DNA from: an uncultured Nitrosomonas sp.
Lineage (GTDB): Bacteria > Pseudomonadota > Gammaproteobacteria > Burkholderiales > Nitrosomonadaceae
NCBI GenBank assembly: GCA_902826115.1
Contig: CADEDO010000003.1
Location: 1 to 64,000 of the forward strand
Direction of reading: 5' to 3'
DNA: 64,000 bases
Below, piece by piece: positions 33,469 to 62,951 of this stretch (positions within the stretch are counted from its first letter, which is position 1; each line of letters begins with the position of its first letter). Below the pieces are notes generated by a model that worked only from the letters and a program-made list of their open reading frames with translations, ran no database searches and had not been told where the DNA came from. The position numbers and the translations under genes were made by a program.

Positions 33469-34932
33469 ATGTCACATAGTTCAACACAAATTAATAAACA
33501 CTTAAAAAGCTTACAAAAACACCTCGCTGATGAGCATCCAGATAATCCGACCCTAGCTAAGGCTGTAAAAAGTTTTAGGAAAATGGATTATGTCGGCCAT
33601 AGCATGGGACTGCTCAGTGAAGATGAATCCTATGCGACCTGTGTGACATGGTGGCCCATGATAGCTGTATTAGGCACATTCTCAGCCGGCAAGTCGACTT
33701 ACATCAACTCTTATCTGAATTTACCACTGCAACGTACTGGCAATCAGGCTGTTGATGATAAATTTACAGTGATTTGTTACAGCCGACATAATGAAGCTAA
33801 AACGCTTCCTGGCATAGCGCTGGATGCAGATCCGCGTTTTCCTTTTTTTCAAATAAGCCGCAGTATTGAAGAAATCTCTGAGGCTGGGCAAGAACGTATC
33901 GATGCGTACCTACAATTAAAAACTTGCCCATCTGAAAATATCCGTGGAAAAATTTTGATTGACTCTCCAGGTTTTGATGCGGACAATCAGCGCGCTTCCA
34001 CATTGCGCTTAACACAACATATCATCAATTTATCAGATCTTGTCTTGGTGTTTTTTGATGCACGCCACCCCGAGCCTAAAGCCATGCAAGATACGCTGGC
34101 CTATTTAGTCTCTGCCAGCGTTAATCGAGCTGATGCCAATAAATTTCTATACATTCTTAATCAGATTGATGTCACTGCCCAAGAAGACAATCCTGAAGAG
34201 GTCGTCTCAGCCTGGCAACGCTCGTTGGCTGAAGTAGGTTTAGTCACAGGACGTTTTTATCGGATTTACAATCCAAGCGCAGCAGTTCCAATAGCCAATC
34301 CTCAAGTCCGAGAACGATTTGAGAAAAAGCGTGACGAGGATATGGCTGACATCAACGCACGTATGCATCAGATTGAAGTGGAACGGTCGTACCGCATTGT
34401 TGGAAAACTTGAGCAGACAGCAAAAGGAATCAAAAATCAAATCGTCAACAAACTTTCAGATATGCTTACTAAATGGAAAAGCAAAGTCATGATGTTAGAC
34501 GGTCTTGCATTGGGTACATTGGCCATACTAGGAGGAACAGCTTTAACGATGACTGAATCCTGGGAACTGCTCAAAACATTTCCAACCGAGTTTTCTCAAG
34601 GTGAAAATTCTGCATTAGTAATCGCAGCATTTTTAGTGATAGGCATTTTATATACTCATTTCTCGATTCGCAGATTTGTTGCGAATAAGCTACTGAAAAA
34701 ATTAGCCGATGAAATAGGCAATGATCACGAAGTATACAAACAGTATATGCAAGCATTTAATAAATGTACCGCCGCCTATCGCCCAATGTTTCTGCAAGGT
34801 CCTGCTGGTTGGAATGAGGTAACACAGCAAACTATCGATGAAATTATCAATGAGGCTAATGATTACATTCAAGAATTAAATGATCAGTTCACTAATCCAT
34901 CTGGCAACGCGGATGAAAACACACAAGTTTAA
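33469..34932 (+). CDS. Dynamin-like large GTPase
   Basis: This 487-residue protein has a dynamin-type GTPase domain at about residues 62-270. G1 is GTFSAGKST (69-77), a switch-I threonine lies near residue 100, G3 is DSPG (165-168) and G4 is NQID (231-234). A helical region follows, then two hydrophobic segments (about 345-362 and 381-398), and a helical C-terminus. This layout suggests a membrane-anchored protein that bends or fuses membranes. Bacterial dynamins usually come in pairs, but this one is single, with DUF502 upstream (opposite strand) and rpsO downstream. The specific role is unknown. Confidence 0.8.
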   Translation: MSHSSTQINKHLKSLQKHLADEHPDNPTLAKAVKSFRKMDYVGHSMGLLSEDESYATCVTWWPMIAVLGTFSAGKSTYINSYLNLPLQRTGNQAVDDKFTVICYSRHNEAKTLPGIALDADPRFPFFQISRSIEEISEAGQERIDAYLQLKTCPSENIRGKILIDSPGFDADNQRASTLRLTQHIINLSDLVLVFFDARHPEPKAMQDTLAYLVSASVNRADANKFLYILNQIDVTAQEDNPEEVVSAWQRSLAEVGLVTGRFYRIYNPSAAVPIANPQVRERFEKKRDEDMADINARMHQIEVERSYRIVGKLEQTAKGIKNQIVNKLSDMLTKWKSKVMMLDGLALGTLAILGGTALTMTESWELLKTFPTEFSQGENSALVIAAFLVIGILYTHFSIRRFVANKLLKKLADEIGNDHEVYKQYMQAFNKCTAAYRPMFLQGPAGWNEVTQQTIDEIINEANDYIQELNDQFTNPSGNADENTQV

Positions 34933-57766: not shown

Positions 57767-58342
57767 ATGCACATTGATGATTCCGGTGTTCTGACCACTG
57801 CCCAATGGATTGCCTCTCCCAATTTCGACCAGCGCCCGGCAGAGACTGAAGTCAGTTTATTGGTCATCCATAATATCAGCCTGCCACCCAACGAATTCAG
57901 CGGTCAAGGCGTGATTGATTTGTTTACCAACCGAATCGACCCGCAAGCCCATCCCTATTATCAATCCCTACAAGGACTTAAAGTATCCGCACATTTTTTT
58001 GTCCGCCGAGATGGCACGATCATCCAGTTTGTATCCTGCAACGATCGCGCCTGGCATGCCGGTGTATCCAACTGGCAAGGCAAAGATCGCTGCAATGATT
58101 ATTCCATTGGCATTGAACTGGAAGGCAGCGACATCACACCATTTACCGATACACAATATGCCAGCTTGATTGCACTGACGCAGTGTTTGCACACTCGCTA
58201 TCCGATTAAAGACATCATCGGGCATTCGGACATCGCTCCCGGACGCAAAACCGATCCGGGGCCTTGTTTTGATTGGGAAAGATACGACAGTGGTTTGCGT
58301 CGAGATTTTATCAAGCGATCAACCAATAGCACACCAACGTAA
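57767..58342 (+). CDS. ampD: 1,6-anhydro-N-acetylmuramyl-L-alanine amidase AmpD
   Basis: This 191-residue cytoplasmic zinc amidase recycles cell-wall muropeptides. The zinc histidines are in LLVIHNISLP and DRAWHAGVSNW, and HSDIAPGRKTDPGPCFDW holds the third zinc ligand region and catalytic residues. The ATG at 57767 gives the family start MHIDDSG. The 3' end overlaps the convergent SLC13 gene by 32 bp. Confidence 0.94.
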   Translation: MHIDDSGVLTTAQWIASPNFDQRPAETEVSLLVIHNISLPPNEFSGQGVIDLFTNRIDPQAHPYYQSLQGLKVSAHFFVRRDGTIIQFVSCNDRAWHAGVSNWQGKDRCNDYSIGIELEGSDITPFTDTQYASLIALTQCLHTRYPIKDIIGHSDIAPGRKTDPGPCFDWERYDSGLRRDFIKRSTNSTPT

Positions 58343-59705
58343 TCACTGCGGCACCGATAAAATTAAGCACAAAACCTTCGCGCGCCATACTGGCCATTGG
58401 GATCATACCGGTTCCAAACACAATCGCATTGGGCGGTGTCCCCACAGGCATCATAAAACCATAACTGGCAGCCATAGCAGCAGGTACCATTAGCAAAGCG
58501 GGATCAATACCTGCTGCTAAGCCGGCAGGTCCAAGAATCGGCATCAACAAAATGGTGATTGCCGTATTACTCGTTATTTCTGTGAGAAAGATAACTGCCA
58601 GCGTAACGAATACAATAATGATCAGTGGATGCAGGCCAGACAGCACTGCCAATTGCTCGCCAATTGATTGGGATATACCGGTTTCAACAAAGGCCTGAGC
58701 AATGGCAATACCGCCGGCGAAAAGAATAAGAATACCCCACGGCACTTTGGCTGCCGTCTCCCAATCAAGCAGTTTCCCATCACGACCATTGGGGATCAAA
58801 AACATAGCAAGCACAGCAATCAATGCAACCGTTGCATCTGTCGCCCCCTTAAGATCAAGCCAGCCACTCCAACCACCAAAAGGCTCCGTGCGTGTTATCC
58901 AAGCGAGAACAGTTATGCCAAAAATAATCAAAACGCGCTGCTCTTCCGGACGCCAGCGACCCGATTCCGGCATAGTCAACTCACCCACATAATTCAAATG
59001 ACGTGTCAGCCACAAACCAGCCAGCGGTGCCATTAATAGAACGACAGGCACCCCCAAACTCATCCACTCCAGGAAACTCACTGTGTTGCCTGTAAAACTT
59101 TCATACTCCTTCATGAAAACCAGATTGGGCGGTGTACCGATGGGCGAACCCAGACCGCCAATGCTACTGCCATAAGCTAGCGACAATAACAAGGGCAAAG
59201 CCAGTTTTTTATCATTACTTTGCGCGATAACCGCAAGTGCCAGCGGTATCATCATGAGCGTCGTTGCCGTGTTCGAAATCCACATGCTAAGCAGTGCGCA
59301 CGCAAACATGAAACCAAAAACAATGCGCCGACTGCTATTTCCGCCTATTATGCGAATCAACCCCAAGGCAAGTCGATGATGTGCTCCAGAACTTGCTAAA
59401 GCTGCAGAAATCATAAATCCGCCTAACATCAGCAATATCATATCGTTTCCATAGGCTTTGGCCACATCCTCCTTTGACAAAACATCAACCAATGGAAAAA
59501 CTGCGAGCGGAATCATGGAAGTGGCCGGTATCGGAATCGACTCAAAAAGCCACCACACGACACACAGCATCACAACTGCACCTGTCCAACAGGCTTTGGT
59601 ATCCCAACCGGATGCGTTCATGCTGGCGGCGAGGAGTGCGGCAAATAGCGGGCCGATAATTAAGGCCCAGAAACGAATTGAAGGCATGGAAGCTTCACTA
59701 TGCAC
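58311..59705 (-). CDS. SLC13/DASS-family sodium-dependent anion symporter
   Basis: This 464-residue membrane protein has two repeats with the SNT-type motifs WISNTATTLMMIPLA and EITSNTAITILLMPI, plus GGLGSPIGTPPNLVF. These are DASS sodium sites. Substrates in the family are di- and tricarboxylates or sulfate. A GTG start at 59705 lies 5 nt after AAGGA, while the ATG at 59687 has no such site. The GTG overlaps the last 8 nt of the TIR gene, so the permease appears coupled to it. Confidence 0.9.
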   Translation of the reverse strand: MHSEASMPSIRFWALIIGPLFAALLAASMNASGWDTKACWTGAVVMLCVVWWLFESIPIPATSMIPLAVFPLVDVLSKEDVAKAYGNDMILLMLGGFMISAALASSGAHHRLALGLIRIIGGNSSRRIVFGFMFACALLSMWISNTATTLMMIPLALAVIAQSNDKKLALPLLLSLAYGSSIGGLGSPIGTPPNLVFMKEYESFTGNTVSFLEWMSLGVPVVLLMAPLAGLWLTRHLNYVGELTMPESGRWRPEEQRVLIIFGITVLAWITRTEPFGGWSGWLDLKGATDATVALIAVLAMFLIPNGRDGKLLDWETAAKVPWGILILFAGGIAIAQAFVETGISQSIGEQLAVLSGLHPLIIIVFVTLAVIFLTEITSNTAITILLMPILGPAGLAAGIDPALLMVPAAMAASYGFMMPVGTPPNAIVFGTGMIPMASMAREGFVLNFIGAAVITLVCYWLIA

Positions 59706-61983
59706 ACTGTTCCTTAGGAGATTTAGTTTTATCTTTAAATTTCACTCCTTCAGGAAATACTAATTTATAAGAGCTATCATTTTGTTTTTCTATTGGTACA
59801 AATTGATATTTACCGTCACATCTTGCTAGGACTTGTACGAGATGCCCTTTTCCATTGATTCGGTCATAATCCCGACTACCAGTTTTTTGATCAAACACAA
59901 CTTTTCCAGTTACGCCAGTAAATTCTAATTTAGAAACTTTTTCAGAAACTTTTTGTTGAAGCTCTTGCCGCGCTTTATCTTCTTTACTCTCTAAAGGAAC
60001 ACTTGATAAACCTTGTATTATTAGCTGAGTTGCATCATAAGCCATTGCAGACCGCCAAGTAAGATCAATATCTGGGTCAAATTTTCCGATTGGACAATCT
60101 TCGTTTACCTTTATCTTTTGACCATTCCAAATACAGTTGGCATTTTTAATGAATTCTTTGCTTTTCTTTTTACTATCATTATCATCATGCGAAGATTTGC
60201 TGTGCCAATTAACCGCCACTATTGCTCCTTCTAAATCCTCTCCTAAAACATCCCGGCTGAAAAGTGTGTAAGCATTATATAAATCTAAAGAATTATTATT
60301 GCTATTCCTTCTAGCTATGATAGCGCCATCAATGATATTTTTAACATGAACAGAGAGAAATAAATCTGTCAATTTTTCCTTTCTTTTATCTAATTTTTCT
60401 TTAGATAATTTATCACTCTTCAATTTAGATATATCGCATTCTATTACTGTCTTATTATTTTCTTTAGTAATTCCTTCCACAACAATATACTTTTTTAAGT
60501 CTTTCGATTTAATTTCTTGATCTAATCCTTCTACCAATTTATCAGTATCATGAGCAATTGGATCAGCACAAAAATAAACATTCCTTTTTTGTTGGTTAGA
60601 TGCTTTACTTTTTATATGATCAACAATTGCTGGCAACACACTTTGCACTGGATAAGTAATTGAAAATATGTAATTACTTTCCGCATCTTTTATTTCCTTA
60701 GCAGAGTGATTAAGGGTATGACTTGTCGGTGATATCATTACTAGTTTATTTTGATATTCCTTTAAAACAGCATTAGAAACTTGACTGGAGTTGTGTCCAA
60801 TAACAGCAAGAATATCTTTTCTTTCATTTGCAATATGCTTCGCAATACCCTCTGCAATTTCGATATCATTATCATCACTAGCAATTAGCACTTGCAGAAG
60901 CCAACGCTTGCCACAGTCTTCAGCTCTATTTTTTGGATCGTTTTTACAGTCTTCTCGCCATTGATCGTTTATCTCTTTCTGTGCTTGCGCTACACCACGT
61001 AGTATTTCTTTTGCTACCGTAACATTTTTCTGTATCGGAACGCTTACAGCAATGGTCCGAATTTGATTTTGATCTCCTGAATCTGCCAATGCATTTGATT
61101 TTGCTTGGGCATTTTCTAGATATATTTGAGTCTCTGGATCATCAGGCACTTCATTTAAAGATTTTAAAAACCCAGTTTTTGCATCTCCAAGTCTGAAAAG
61201 GAATTCCCTTGCACCGATTCTCTTATCAAAAGAAGCTTCTAGAAAATATTTCTCTCCTAGACTAAGTCTTCTTGCTATGTCCTTTTCAAGTCGTTTTTGT
61301 TCTTCAGATTTTAGCGTCTTTATATCTGCTTCAGTCTTTCTTTTTCCCGTTTCTGCAGCTTCTAATTTCTGATTGCAGTAGAAATTCCAGCCTCCCGAAA
61401 GCAGCAAGCATAATGCTAAAAATACTACAGTAGGCCACACCCAAATTGGAAGTTTTAGTCGAATAAACTCTTTTAGTTCCTTGTAATTATTAGATTCTAG
61501 CTTATCGAATGATATGTAACCTAGACCCGAAAAATAACCCAATACCTTATCTAGGGACTCAATAATTTCTTCAATCCCTTTTGTTTTTGTTTTTCTTAAT
61601 TCTTCTTCTAACTGAGTCTGATATTCGCTAGATCCGCGCAAATTCATTAACTTGCAATTCCCAACGACGATTGGAAATATTACTTTCCTATCGTCGTTAG
61701 AATGTATATTAGAAATCTCTCGTAGCTCAGTCATACACCAAGGAGATTTAGCATAGGCATCACTAATCACAACAACAACTTTATCTCCTTCACTCATATT
61801 TTCGATGAATTTTCTAATTGAGTCCCCTGGGTTAATATTTTTCTCGTCCCAAATTAGTTCAACTTCGTGCATCCAGCGCATCCATCTAGTTAATCTCTTT
61901 AGACCATTGATAATTCCTATTTCCTCATCAGTTTCACGTGCATATGAAACATATATCTTAGTCTTTGTAAACTTGGATTTCAT
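59698..61983 (-). CDS. TIR-domain transmembrane receptor with periplasmic-binding-protein-like sensor
   Basis: This 761-residue protein has four parts. Residues 8-150 are a TIR domain: KIYVSYARETDEE, the WDEKNINPGDSIRKFI BB-loop region, VVVVISDAYAKSPWCMTEL with catalytic-type E86, and VIFPIVVG. Residues 178-202 are one hydrophobic membrane segment. Residues 203-300 are a charged coiled-coil with a TPR-like repeat. Residues 305-745 resemble Peripla_BP/LivK receptors: IRTIAVSVPIQ, ILAVIGHNSSQVSNAVLKEY, VMISPTS, WRSAMAYDATQLIIQGL, GVTGKVVFD. The sensor part has eight cysteines (346, 357, 472, 516, 617, 630, 722, 760), which suits an oxidising periplasm, so topology is N-in, C-out. TIR enzymes typically cleave NAD. 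The gene is strikingly AT-rich (a 60-base line near 60361 has 12 G+C), which suggests transfer. No Thoeris, CBASS or STAND partner is adjacent. Confidence 0.88.
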   Translation of the reverse strand: MKSKFTKTKIYVSYARETDEEIGIINGLKRLTRWMRWMHEVELIWDEKNINPGDSIRKFIENMSEGDKVVVVISDAYAKSPWCMTELREISNIHSNDDRKVIFPIVVGNCKLMNLRGSSEYQTQLEEELRKTKTKGIEEIIESLDKVLGYFSGLGYISFDKLESNNYKELKEFIRLKLPIWVWPTVVFLALCLLLSGGWNFYCNQKLEAAETGKRKTEADIKTLKSEEQKRLEKDIARRLSLGEKYFLEASFDKRIGAREFLFRLGDAKTGFLKSLNEVPDDPETQIYLENAQAKSNALADSGDQNQIRTIAVSVPIQKNVTVAKEILRGVAQAQKEINDQWREDCKNDPKNRAEDCGKRWLLQVLIASDDNDIEIAEGIAKHIANERKDILAVIGHNSSQVSNAVLKEYQNKLVMISPTSHTLNHSAKEIKDAESNYIFSITYPVQSVLPAIVDHIKSKASNQQKRNVYFCADPIAHDTDKLVEGLDQEIKSKDLKKYIVVEGITKENNKTVIECDISKLKSDKLSKEKLDKRKEKLTDLFLSVHVKNIIDGAIIARRNSNNNSLDLYNAYTLFSRDVLGEDLEGAIVAVNWHSKSSHDDNDSKKKSKEFIKNANCIWNGQKIKVNEDCPIGKFDPDIDLTWRSAMAYDATQLIIQGLSSVPLESKEDKARQELQQKVSEKVSKLEFTGVTGKVVFDQKTGSRDYDRINGKGHLVQVLARCDGKYQFVPIEKQNDSSYKLVFPEGVKFKDKTKSPKEQCA

Positions 61984-62048: not shown

Positions 62049-62951
62049 TCAAATCACCCGGTAACTCGCAACCATTCGACACTCACCACCCGGCGCAACT
62101 TCAACAACATCATCCGCCGCATTGGTGGTTTCAACACATAACAAACGTTTGTAATCGTCATCTTCCAAATCCGCCATTTCCTTGGCGATTTTCTCCCAGG
62201 GATTCCATACCACGGCGGTTTTGCTGCCTTGCGAAGCAATCTGGATGCGGCGGTTGAATGCGCCGTCATCAATGGTCAGGATATTACCGACATTCAAATA
62301 AATGCGATCGACTTCGGCATCGATGGTCACGTCTCCGGATTGGTGTTTTTGCACGCTGCCGCCACCGGCTTTGTCGAGATAATCGCAACCGGCCAGTCCC
62401 AGCACTTTCGCACGGGCGATATCGCCGACCTTGAAGTAGGTGTGAAACGCCTGGGTGATGGTGAATTTTTCCTTGCCGGTATTGCGCGTGATCAGTGACA
62501 GATTTAACGAATCGCCAATGATGATTTCCTGCCGCAGGCTGAACGCATGCGGCCAGATGGCTTGCGTTTCCGCTGTATCGTCGAGTCCGACGGTAACTTT
62601 GATATCGCCGTTCGCCAGCGCTTCAGTCGCCACCACATTCCAGCCGCGATTGCGCACGAAGCCATGTCCTGGACGTCCTTTGCCTTCCGGATCGGCGCCA
62701 AACCACGGCCAGCAAATCGGCGCACCGCCTTTAATCGCTTTCCCGTCCTGATAATAGGCTTTCTCGCTCAGGAACATGACATCTTCCGGCTCACCGGTGG
62801 GCTGATACGACAATACCTGACCGGCATGGATCGATATCAGCGCCTTGGCCTTGGCGCTATTCACCTGAATCATGGGCAAACCGCCCTTGCCGGCTACAAA
62901 TTCAAGTTGACCGGAAATACTGTATTTGGCATTGAGTTGCTCAATAGTCAT
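62049..62951 (-). CDS. yeaD: D-hexose-6-phosphate mutarotase / aldose-1-epimerase-like (YeaD)
   Basis: This 300-residue protein has the family segments GGAPICWPWFGADPEGKGRP, GHGFVRNRGWNV and FHTYFKVGDI, with the catalytic histidines, and VVWNPWEK near the C-terminus. It equilibrates anomers of hexose 6-phosphates. It is GC-rich (a 60-base line at 62641 has 39 G+C), unlike the TIR gene 65 bp downstream on the same strand. Confidence 0.9.
   Translation of the reverse strand: MTIEQLNAKYSISGQLEFVAGKGGLPMIQVNSAKAKALISIHAGQVLSYQPTGEPEDVMFLSEKAYYQDGKAIKGGAPICWPWFGADPEGKGRPGHGFVRNRGWNVVATEALANGDIKVTVGLDDTAETQAIWPHAFSLRQEIIIGDSLNLSLITRNTGKEKFTITQAFHTYFKVGDIARAKVLGLAGCDYLDKAGGGSVQKHQSGDVTIDAEVDRIYLNVGNILTIDDGAFNRRIQIASQGSKTAVVWNPWEKIAKEMADLEDDDYKRLLCVETTNAADDVVEVAPGGECRMVASYRVI

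Follow-up and report, generated by a model that had tools for sequence, protein, structure and literature searches.

At the locus described here, part of a 64,000-nucleotide window (positions 1 to 64,000 of contig CADEDO010000003.1 from an uncultured Nitrosomonas sp.), one gene encodes a protein that joins a TIR domain, a single transmembrane (TM) segment, a helical stalk, and a type I periplasmic-binding protein (PBP) sensor. The gene, its parts, and its two neighbors are as follows.

59698..61983 (stop codon included), minus strand: TIR-TM-stalk-PBP gene, 761 amino acids, an open reading frame without interruption
61462..61962, minus strand: TIR domain, residues 8-174
61726-61728, minus strand: codon of E86 in the TIR domain
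61396..61452, minus strand: single TM segment, residues 178-196 (hydropathy 2.13; model helix 182-195)
61078..61371, minus strand: helical stalk, residues 205-302 (helix 205-237, then a TPR-like unit)
59764..61065, minus strand: LivK-like sensor of the type I periplasmic-binding class, residues 307-740, assigned by fold and conservation
58311..59705, minus strand: DASS/Na-sulfate-symporter-type transporter gene (Pfam Na_sulph_symp, CitMHS), which bounds the slot of the receptor gene on one side
62049..62951, minus strand: aldose-1-epimerase-like gene, the 5' neighbor and other slot border

The epimerase-like, receptor, and transporter genes are all on the minus strand, and the receptor gene lies directly upstream of the transporter gene, its end overlapping the longest reading of the transporter frame by 8 bases (the next transporter ATG is at 59687). 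Promoter-like sites in the region number 7, below the shuffle mean of 12.1, and terminator-like sites number 6, near the shuffle mean of 5.1. The TIR-TM-stalk-sensor layout is confirmed as real; the domain order, which the initial annotation had read from the translation, is borne out by profile, fold, and model evidence. A chance fusion or frame artifact was rejected, as the layout is also present in six other proteins.

These proteins came from a search over 5.8 billion proteins, in which 1330 matches were found among 7998 candidates scored and the best 120, query included, were examined. Six listed matches besides the query have the full-length TIR-TM-PBP order that the initial annotation had proposed looking for. 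Effector classes were assigned from the listed Pfam accessions, with P0117 placed by hand under caspase, and on this basis the 120 comprise 7 proteins with TIR alone (query included), 7 with TIR-nSTAND1, 2 with other nSTAND1, 45 with CHAT (PF12770), 10 with PF00656, which we take to be caspase, and 5 with PF14516, presumably AAA_35. The remaining 44 carry none of the listed effectors, several being fragments or short TM-sensor proteins. Thus, the same TM-stalk-sensor unit stands behind several effector types (TIR, TIR-nSTAND1, CHAT, caspase, and AAA_35) and also occurs without any of them. This pattern suggests that the sensor is a portable module set on differing cytoplasmic effectors and, because the same outer sensor sits on several other death-type enzymes, that it may serve as a swappable bacterial alarm receptor. 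As a separate observation, the 44 matches without a listed effector mean that the sensor can serve other ends.

The TIR half matched its family by both profile and fold. As all 50 VIA rows shown for the whole-protein model were PBPs, the TIR domain was folded alone; its best VIA rows were plant TIRs, RUN1 included, and one of the RUN1 entries is an E100A mutant with NAD bound. E86 and D46 are invariant in all 15 aligned TIRs, in keeping with the catalytic-type role that the initial annotation had given to E86. E86 lies in a WCxxE context (visible in the L6/L7 alignment), which we take to be that of the catalytic glutamate in plant TIRs, some of which are NADases. Against PADLOC, the query gave weak local TIR-type matches only (ThsB, 5.9e-5; bSEFIR, 6e-4). 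A search with the TIR half found two proteins besides the query, which makes this a narrow TIR type at the sensitivity used. The host genome holds four additional TIR_2 matches, three of them above the cut-off.

The sensor half has the type I periplasmic-binding (LivK-type) fold. The initial annotation had called it LivK/Peripla_BP-like, a description that stands on fold but falls short of the Pfam cut-offs on the query itself (Peripla_BP_6, 24.2 bits versus 31.7; ANF_receptor, 22.5 bits versus 25.4). Among relatives, P0059, L121, and L122 pass the Peripla_BP_6 cut-off and P0002 does not. Conservation within the sensor is strong: C472, C516, and R644 occur in every one of the 32 rows of the sensor alignment (A2) and in 52, 53, and 53 of the 53 sequences of a second set, and S400, T420, W593, R644, and D650 are likewise found in 32 of 32 and in 50, 52, 53, 53, and 53 of 53. 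In the stalk, D282-P283-E284, Y288, and N291 are unchanged in all 53 aligned sensors. Of these residues, S400 belongs to the ligand pocket, which retains it. Position 422 aligns with a threonine of leucine-binding proteins that presumably contacts the amino acid ligand; it varies among the sensors (V, Y, F, H, N, S, and others), so the pocket need not be a canonical one for amino acids. R644 sits at the place of an aromatic residue in the aligned binding proteins, a replacement consistent with an acidic ligand, although to name one would be a guess. The candidate that the sensor is an ABC-transporter binding protein was rejected, as no Liv permease or ATPase gene was found among the nine flanking proteins scanned with Pfam.

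Hydropathy gave one segment above threshold, at residues 178-196, which together with the model helix agrees with the single TM segment first proposed; model confidence is low (pLDDT <50) at residues 196-207, directly after it. For charge bias, a hydrophobic segment was sought 60 to 190 residues ahead of the sensor motif, and lysines and arginines were counted in the 15 flanking residues; 97 of 121 proteins passed this filter (14 had no motif and 10 no clear TM segment ahead of it). In these 97, the distance from the TM start to the sensor motif is 104 to 157 residues, with a median of 119, and the positive charge is higher on the N-terminal side in 61, equal in 20, and lower in 16. The query has four such residues on the N-terminal side versus one after the segment, and P0007 is a counter-case, with four after and two before.

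Cysteine parity points the same way. In the 109 proteins counted (120 were tried and 11 set aside for want of an anchor or TM segment), which, like those counted for charge, are related sequences and not independent draws, the number of cysteines after the TM segment is even in 104. Among the 72 with more than 120 residues before the segment, the count before it is even in 37 and the count after it in 67; in a thinned set, the corresponding figures are 22 of 39 before and 52 of 57 after. The query is one of the exceptions: it has nine cysteines after the segment, namely C203 beside the membrane and the eight in the sensor that had been counted initially. Four others are also odd (P0022, P0029, P0033, and P0049). 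Even counts would be expected from disulfide pairing in an oxidizing compartment. Both charge bias and cysteine parity therefore indicate the predicted N-in/C-out topology, and these computed patterns support the earlier placement of the sensor outside the cytoplasm.

The two ends of the protein can be compared separately across relatives. P0002 matches the query at 27% identity over the TIR, 24% over the TM segment plus first stalk helix, 82% over the TPR-like unit, and 95% over the PBP, and the two do not differ at all in residues 601-761; for P0004, the same parts give 77%, 38%, 60%, and 55%. Because TIR and PBP identities are discordant in these pairs, the alignments indicate that the two ends of the protein differ in their history, the junction lying near residue 226, and that the halves have been exchanged. 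Across the seven TIR-TM-PBP proteins, the TM segment and first helix (9-40%) are less alike than the TIR (14-77%) in 21 of 21 pairs, a divergence that would be expected for a tether, although no other part is as difficult to align. The strongest new points of this analysis are the support that cysteine parity gives to the topology and the swapping of TIRs on a sensor that stays nearly constant.

Beyond the protein matches, a contig scan of one genome per species, with an alignment as query, showed that 298 of 318 pattern matches encode relatives, and the best 80 of the 298 were kept, of which 78 are cyanobacterial and two are from Nitrosomonas; a contig scan with a single protein as query confirmed no relative. 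The fusion, noticed at first as a single protein, is thus not a lone one; it forms a branch within a large sensor family, and nearly all of the best genome matches to that family are cyanobacterial. The sensor was found in 4 of the 101 genomes searched (G000, G009, G022, and, as a remnant, G027; G009 and G022 are of the same genus as the window), with TIR-only matches in four more of the 101, and among 399 genomes sampled across the order, the one match at 1e-15 was the window's own. No match to the receptor was found among 50,697 phage records, none of 46 pattern matches on viral contigs encodes a relative, and matches were found in 4 of 72,556 plasmid records; these four are cyanobacterial, share 25-37% identity, and in no case extend over 80% of the query. 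An ordinary phage- or plasmid-borne gene was therefore rejected, phages giving no match and plasmids four distant cyanobacterial ones.

The slot between the transporter and epimerase-like genes was compared in five relatives, chosen among the strongest transporter matches (a match of some kind was present in 33 of 51 genomes); the whole slot is visible in four, and in G025 the contig ends within it. In G027, the slot measures 318 bases and contains a disrupted copy of the sensor end, which matches at 59% along 66 residues and is interrupted by one stop. It holds a 341-residue protein without a Pfam match in G020, a PIN_12 protein and small open reading frames in G013, and, in G029, small open reading frames and a RelA_SpoT protein that is itself a near full-length match to PADLOC PDC-S33 (2.2e-118), a defense candidate. 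The DASS-epimerase pair is present without the receptor gene in all four. The receptor gene itself looks acquired because its GC content is 0.343 against 0.492 and 0.533 in its flanks, and it looks like accessory cargo in a variable slot. Its immediate flanks contain no partner gene or defense island, the nine neighboring proteins scanned with Pfam being housekeeping or metabolic. In G022, a different sensor gene also adjoins a DASS gene, in a neighborhood that is not the same, and in G009 the sensor gene lies on one contig and the best DASS match on another. The DASS link of the receptor gene is a weak lead.

We give slightly better than even credence to an N-in/C-out single-span receptor, with a portable sensor and carried as accessory cargo, in which an outside solute would lead to TIR assembly and NAD+ cleavage. 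The periplasmic LivK-like domain would bind a small solute, or the solute would keep the receptor quiet. The signal would pass through the TPR-like stalk to the single TM helix, as in single-span receptors with binding-protein ectodomains; the natriuretic peptide receptor is one of these and, with general TIR biology, serves as our model. Altered chain pairing would bring together the cytoplasmic TIRs of at least two chains, and the assembled TIRs would cleave NAD+, so that the cell is stopped or killed. Anatomy, predicted topology, E86 conservation, the discordant halves, and the variable slot are what the sequences show; ligand binding, TIR assembly, NAD cleavage, and biological role are inferred. 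Evolution would have fitted the sensor module to TIR, TIR-nSTAND1, CHAT, caspase, and AAA effectors. The role of the gene would most likely be in defense or in a cell-death decision on an outside cue, and we infer that it is probably a defense or suicide receptor. The receptor proposed in the initial annotation, which turned an outside ligand into NAD cleavage or a TIR-made nucleotide signal, is partly supported: its anatomy and the presence of the same sensor on other effectors fit.

Several other readings bear on the TIR and its side of the membrane. The TIR could make a cyclic-ADP-ribose-type signal for a separate effector elsewhere in the genome, as in Thoeris, without NAD depletion of its own. 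Thoeris ThsB proteins reportedly act through such a signal (PMC11204291), and the query has a weak ThsB profile match, but a ThsA-like gene is absent among the nine neighboring proteins scanned with Pfam, and relatives that carry the sensor on CHAT, caspase, or AAA would presumably need no such partner; we consider this route unlikely. A genome search for the STALD family gave no match, but its controls were equally silent, so this negative is uninformative. It is very improbable that the TIR is a non-enzymatic assembly adaptor recruiting another TIR or effector protein: the genome does offer the other TIR_2 matches as candidate partners, but the invariance of E86 and a fold nearest to plant TIRs, of which some act as NADases, argue for an enzyme. 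Least probable of all, with hardly any weight in our assessment, is a cytoplasmic, AmiC-like PBP half with the hydrophobic segment as a hairpin or buried helix, which is opposed by charge bias, by cysteine parity, and by the recurrence, in 97 of 121 proteins, of such a segment 104 to 157 residues ahead of the motif.

Others concern what the sensor perceives. It might watch the envelope for invaders (phage binding, or injected or released phage or envelope components), the PBP offering a protein- or peptide-binding surface. The conflict-type effectors carried on the sensor and the slot shared with a defense candidate in G029 would suit such a watch. S400, T420, W593, R644, and D650, near-fixed among otherwise very different proteins, would be unlike an arms-race surface, however, and sensors of the query and P0002 are far closer to each other than their TIRs, so we regard this as rather improbable. 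A role in sensing nutrients or metabolites, so as to tune metabolism or the adjoining DASS transporter, with the TIR as a local NAD(P) regulator rather than a suicide or defense enzyme, seems a little less probable still: the gene's place directly upstream of the DASS gene, the similar adjacency in G022, and R644, which would suit an acidic ligand, speak for it, but the DASS-epimerase pair occurs without the receptor gene in four relatives, and in G009 sensor and transporter genes are apart.

Returning to the NAD+-cleaving receptor, we tentatively extend it to a proposal that we rate as plausible though somewhat short of an even chance: a general outside-in death receptor, in which one periplasmic ligand-binding module would command, through one TM helix, exchangeable suicide enzymes (TIR, CHAT, caspase, and STAND), so that the cell kills or arrests itself on an extracellular small-molecule cue, e.g., a metabolite from lysing neighbors. 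The TIR form would then parallel Toll-like receptors in function, with its sensor directed to the outside rather than to phage products inside the cell. To our knowledge, all known bacterial TIR systems are switched on from inside the cell, and we know of no receptors for cyanobacterial programmed cell death. If the proposal is true, bacteria would make life-or-death decisions on extracellular chemistry by means of a TIR coupled to a solute sensor on the outside, and a ligand identified for one sensor would be informative for the TIR, CHAT, and caspase receptors together, many of them cyanobacterial.

Among known systems, the TIRs of Thoeris ThsB, SPARTA, and TIR-STING carry a catalytic glutamate, and the query resembles them as a TIR effector with such a residue. 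It differs in that no ThsA, Argonaute, or STING part was found in the protein or its scanned flanks, a TM segment and PBP standing there instead. Unlike LivJ/LivK proteins and mGluR/ANF ectodomains, its sensor is joined by a TM helix to an effector, in flanks where the scan found no Liv genes. With Toll-like and IL-1 receptors it shares a single span, an outside sensor, and a cytoplasmic TIR (PMC7075850); Toll-like receptors have N-terminal leucine-rich repeats (LRRs) outside, whereas the query is N-in/C-out with a PBP and no LRR in Pfam, and a shared origin of the two layouts is not implied. Among the matches listed from the open-licence full-text literature, no TIR-TM-PBP protein, sensor common to several effectors, or exchange of halves was found. 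The initial annotation had likewise known of no description of this exact fusion. The caspase-TM-extracellular PBP layout was already in print: for System 4 (EACC1 plus caspase), Kaur et al. (2020) describe, in one sentence, caspase proteins that continue into TM helices with an extracellular PBP behind them (PMC7159879). The query shares with System 4 a conflict-type effector ahead of the TM segment and an extracellular PBP behind it, an occasional feature there, and differs in having a TIR rather than a caspase (or cyclase) N-terminal domain and in being a single gene with an aldose-1-epimerase-like 5' neighbor rather than a paired 5' EACC1 gene. Our caspase matches (e.g., P0087) carry a sensor homologous to that of the query, and the source name of P0098 is "caspase, EACC1-associated type"; the PBP of the System 4 paper is likely of the same sensor family.

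The slot occupied by the gene for the 761-residue TIR-TM-stalk-PBP protein, between genes for a DASS transporter and an aldose-1-epimerase-like protein, holds different genes in related genomes (G-numbers; L-numbers denote the stretches or loci concerned):

L125:6985-8040 (G029), RelA_SpoT-domain protein
L124:7626-8831 (G013), PIN_12-domain protein
L123:5706-6728 (G020), 341-residue protein

As the G029 slot protein matches the PADLOC defence candidate PDC-S33 (2.2e-118), the slot carries other defence-type cargo. The G020 slot protein had no Pfam match, and small ORFs in the slot are alike between G013 and G029.

A related sensor gene is also found beside a DASS transporter gene, in a tail-to-tail arrangement, in G022:

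L121:203-3344 (G022), related sensor gene

The G022 transporter is 71% identical to that of the window. The region ahead of the sensor, which may encode an effector, is truncated near the contig start.

When the window genome was searched with the whole query, the sensor did not turn up a second time. The same genome contains four further TIR_2 matches (L130, L131, L132, and L133, with open frames of 987, 506, 509, and 366 residues, respectively), three of them above the cut-off, and the window itself encodes a dynamin-family GTPase:

33469-34932 (+), dynamin-family GTPase, 487 aa

Among other relatives, the TPR-like/PBP sensor is doubled in tandem in at least three CHAT proteins of about 1235 aa (P0009, P0022, and P0033). 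The sensor-only proteins P0064, P0067, and P0070, among others, share an N-terminal stretch like MADLxPxKQLPPS ahead of the TM.

In G009, a related sensor is joined to both TIR and nSTAND1 domains, and a vanadium-chloroperoxidase-like gene adjoins the gene concerned:

L122:6534-9818 (G009), TIR-nSTAND1-TM-PBP protein, 1095 aa

Its architecture is that of a STAND-type receptor bearing the same outside sensor as the TIR-TM-stalk-PBP protein.
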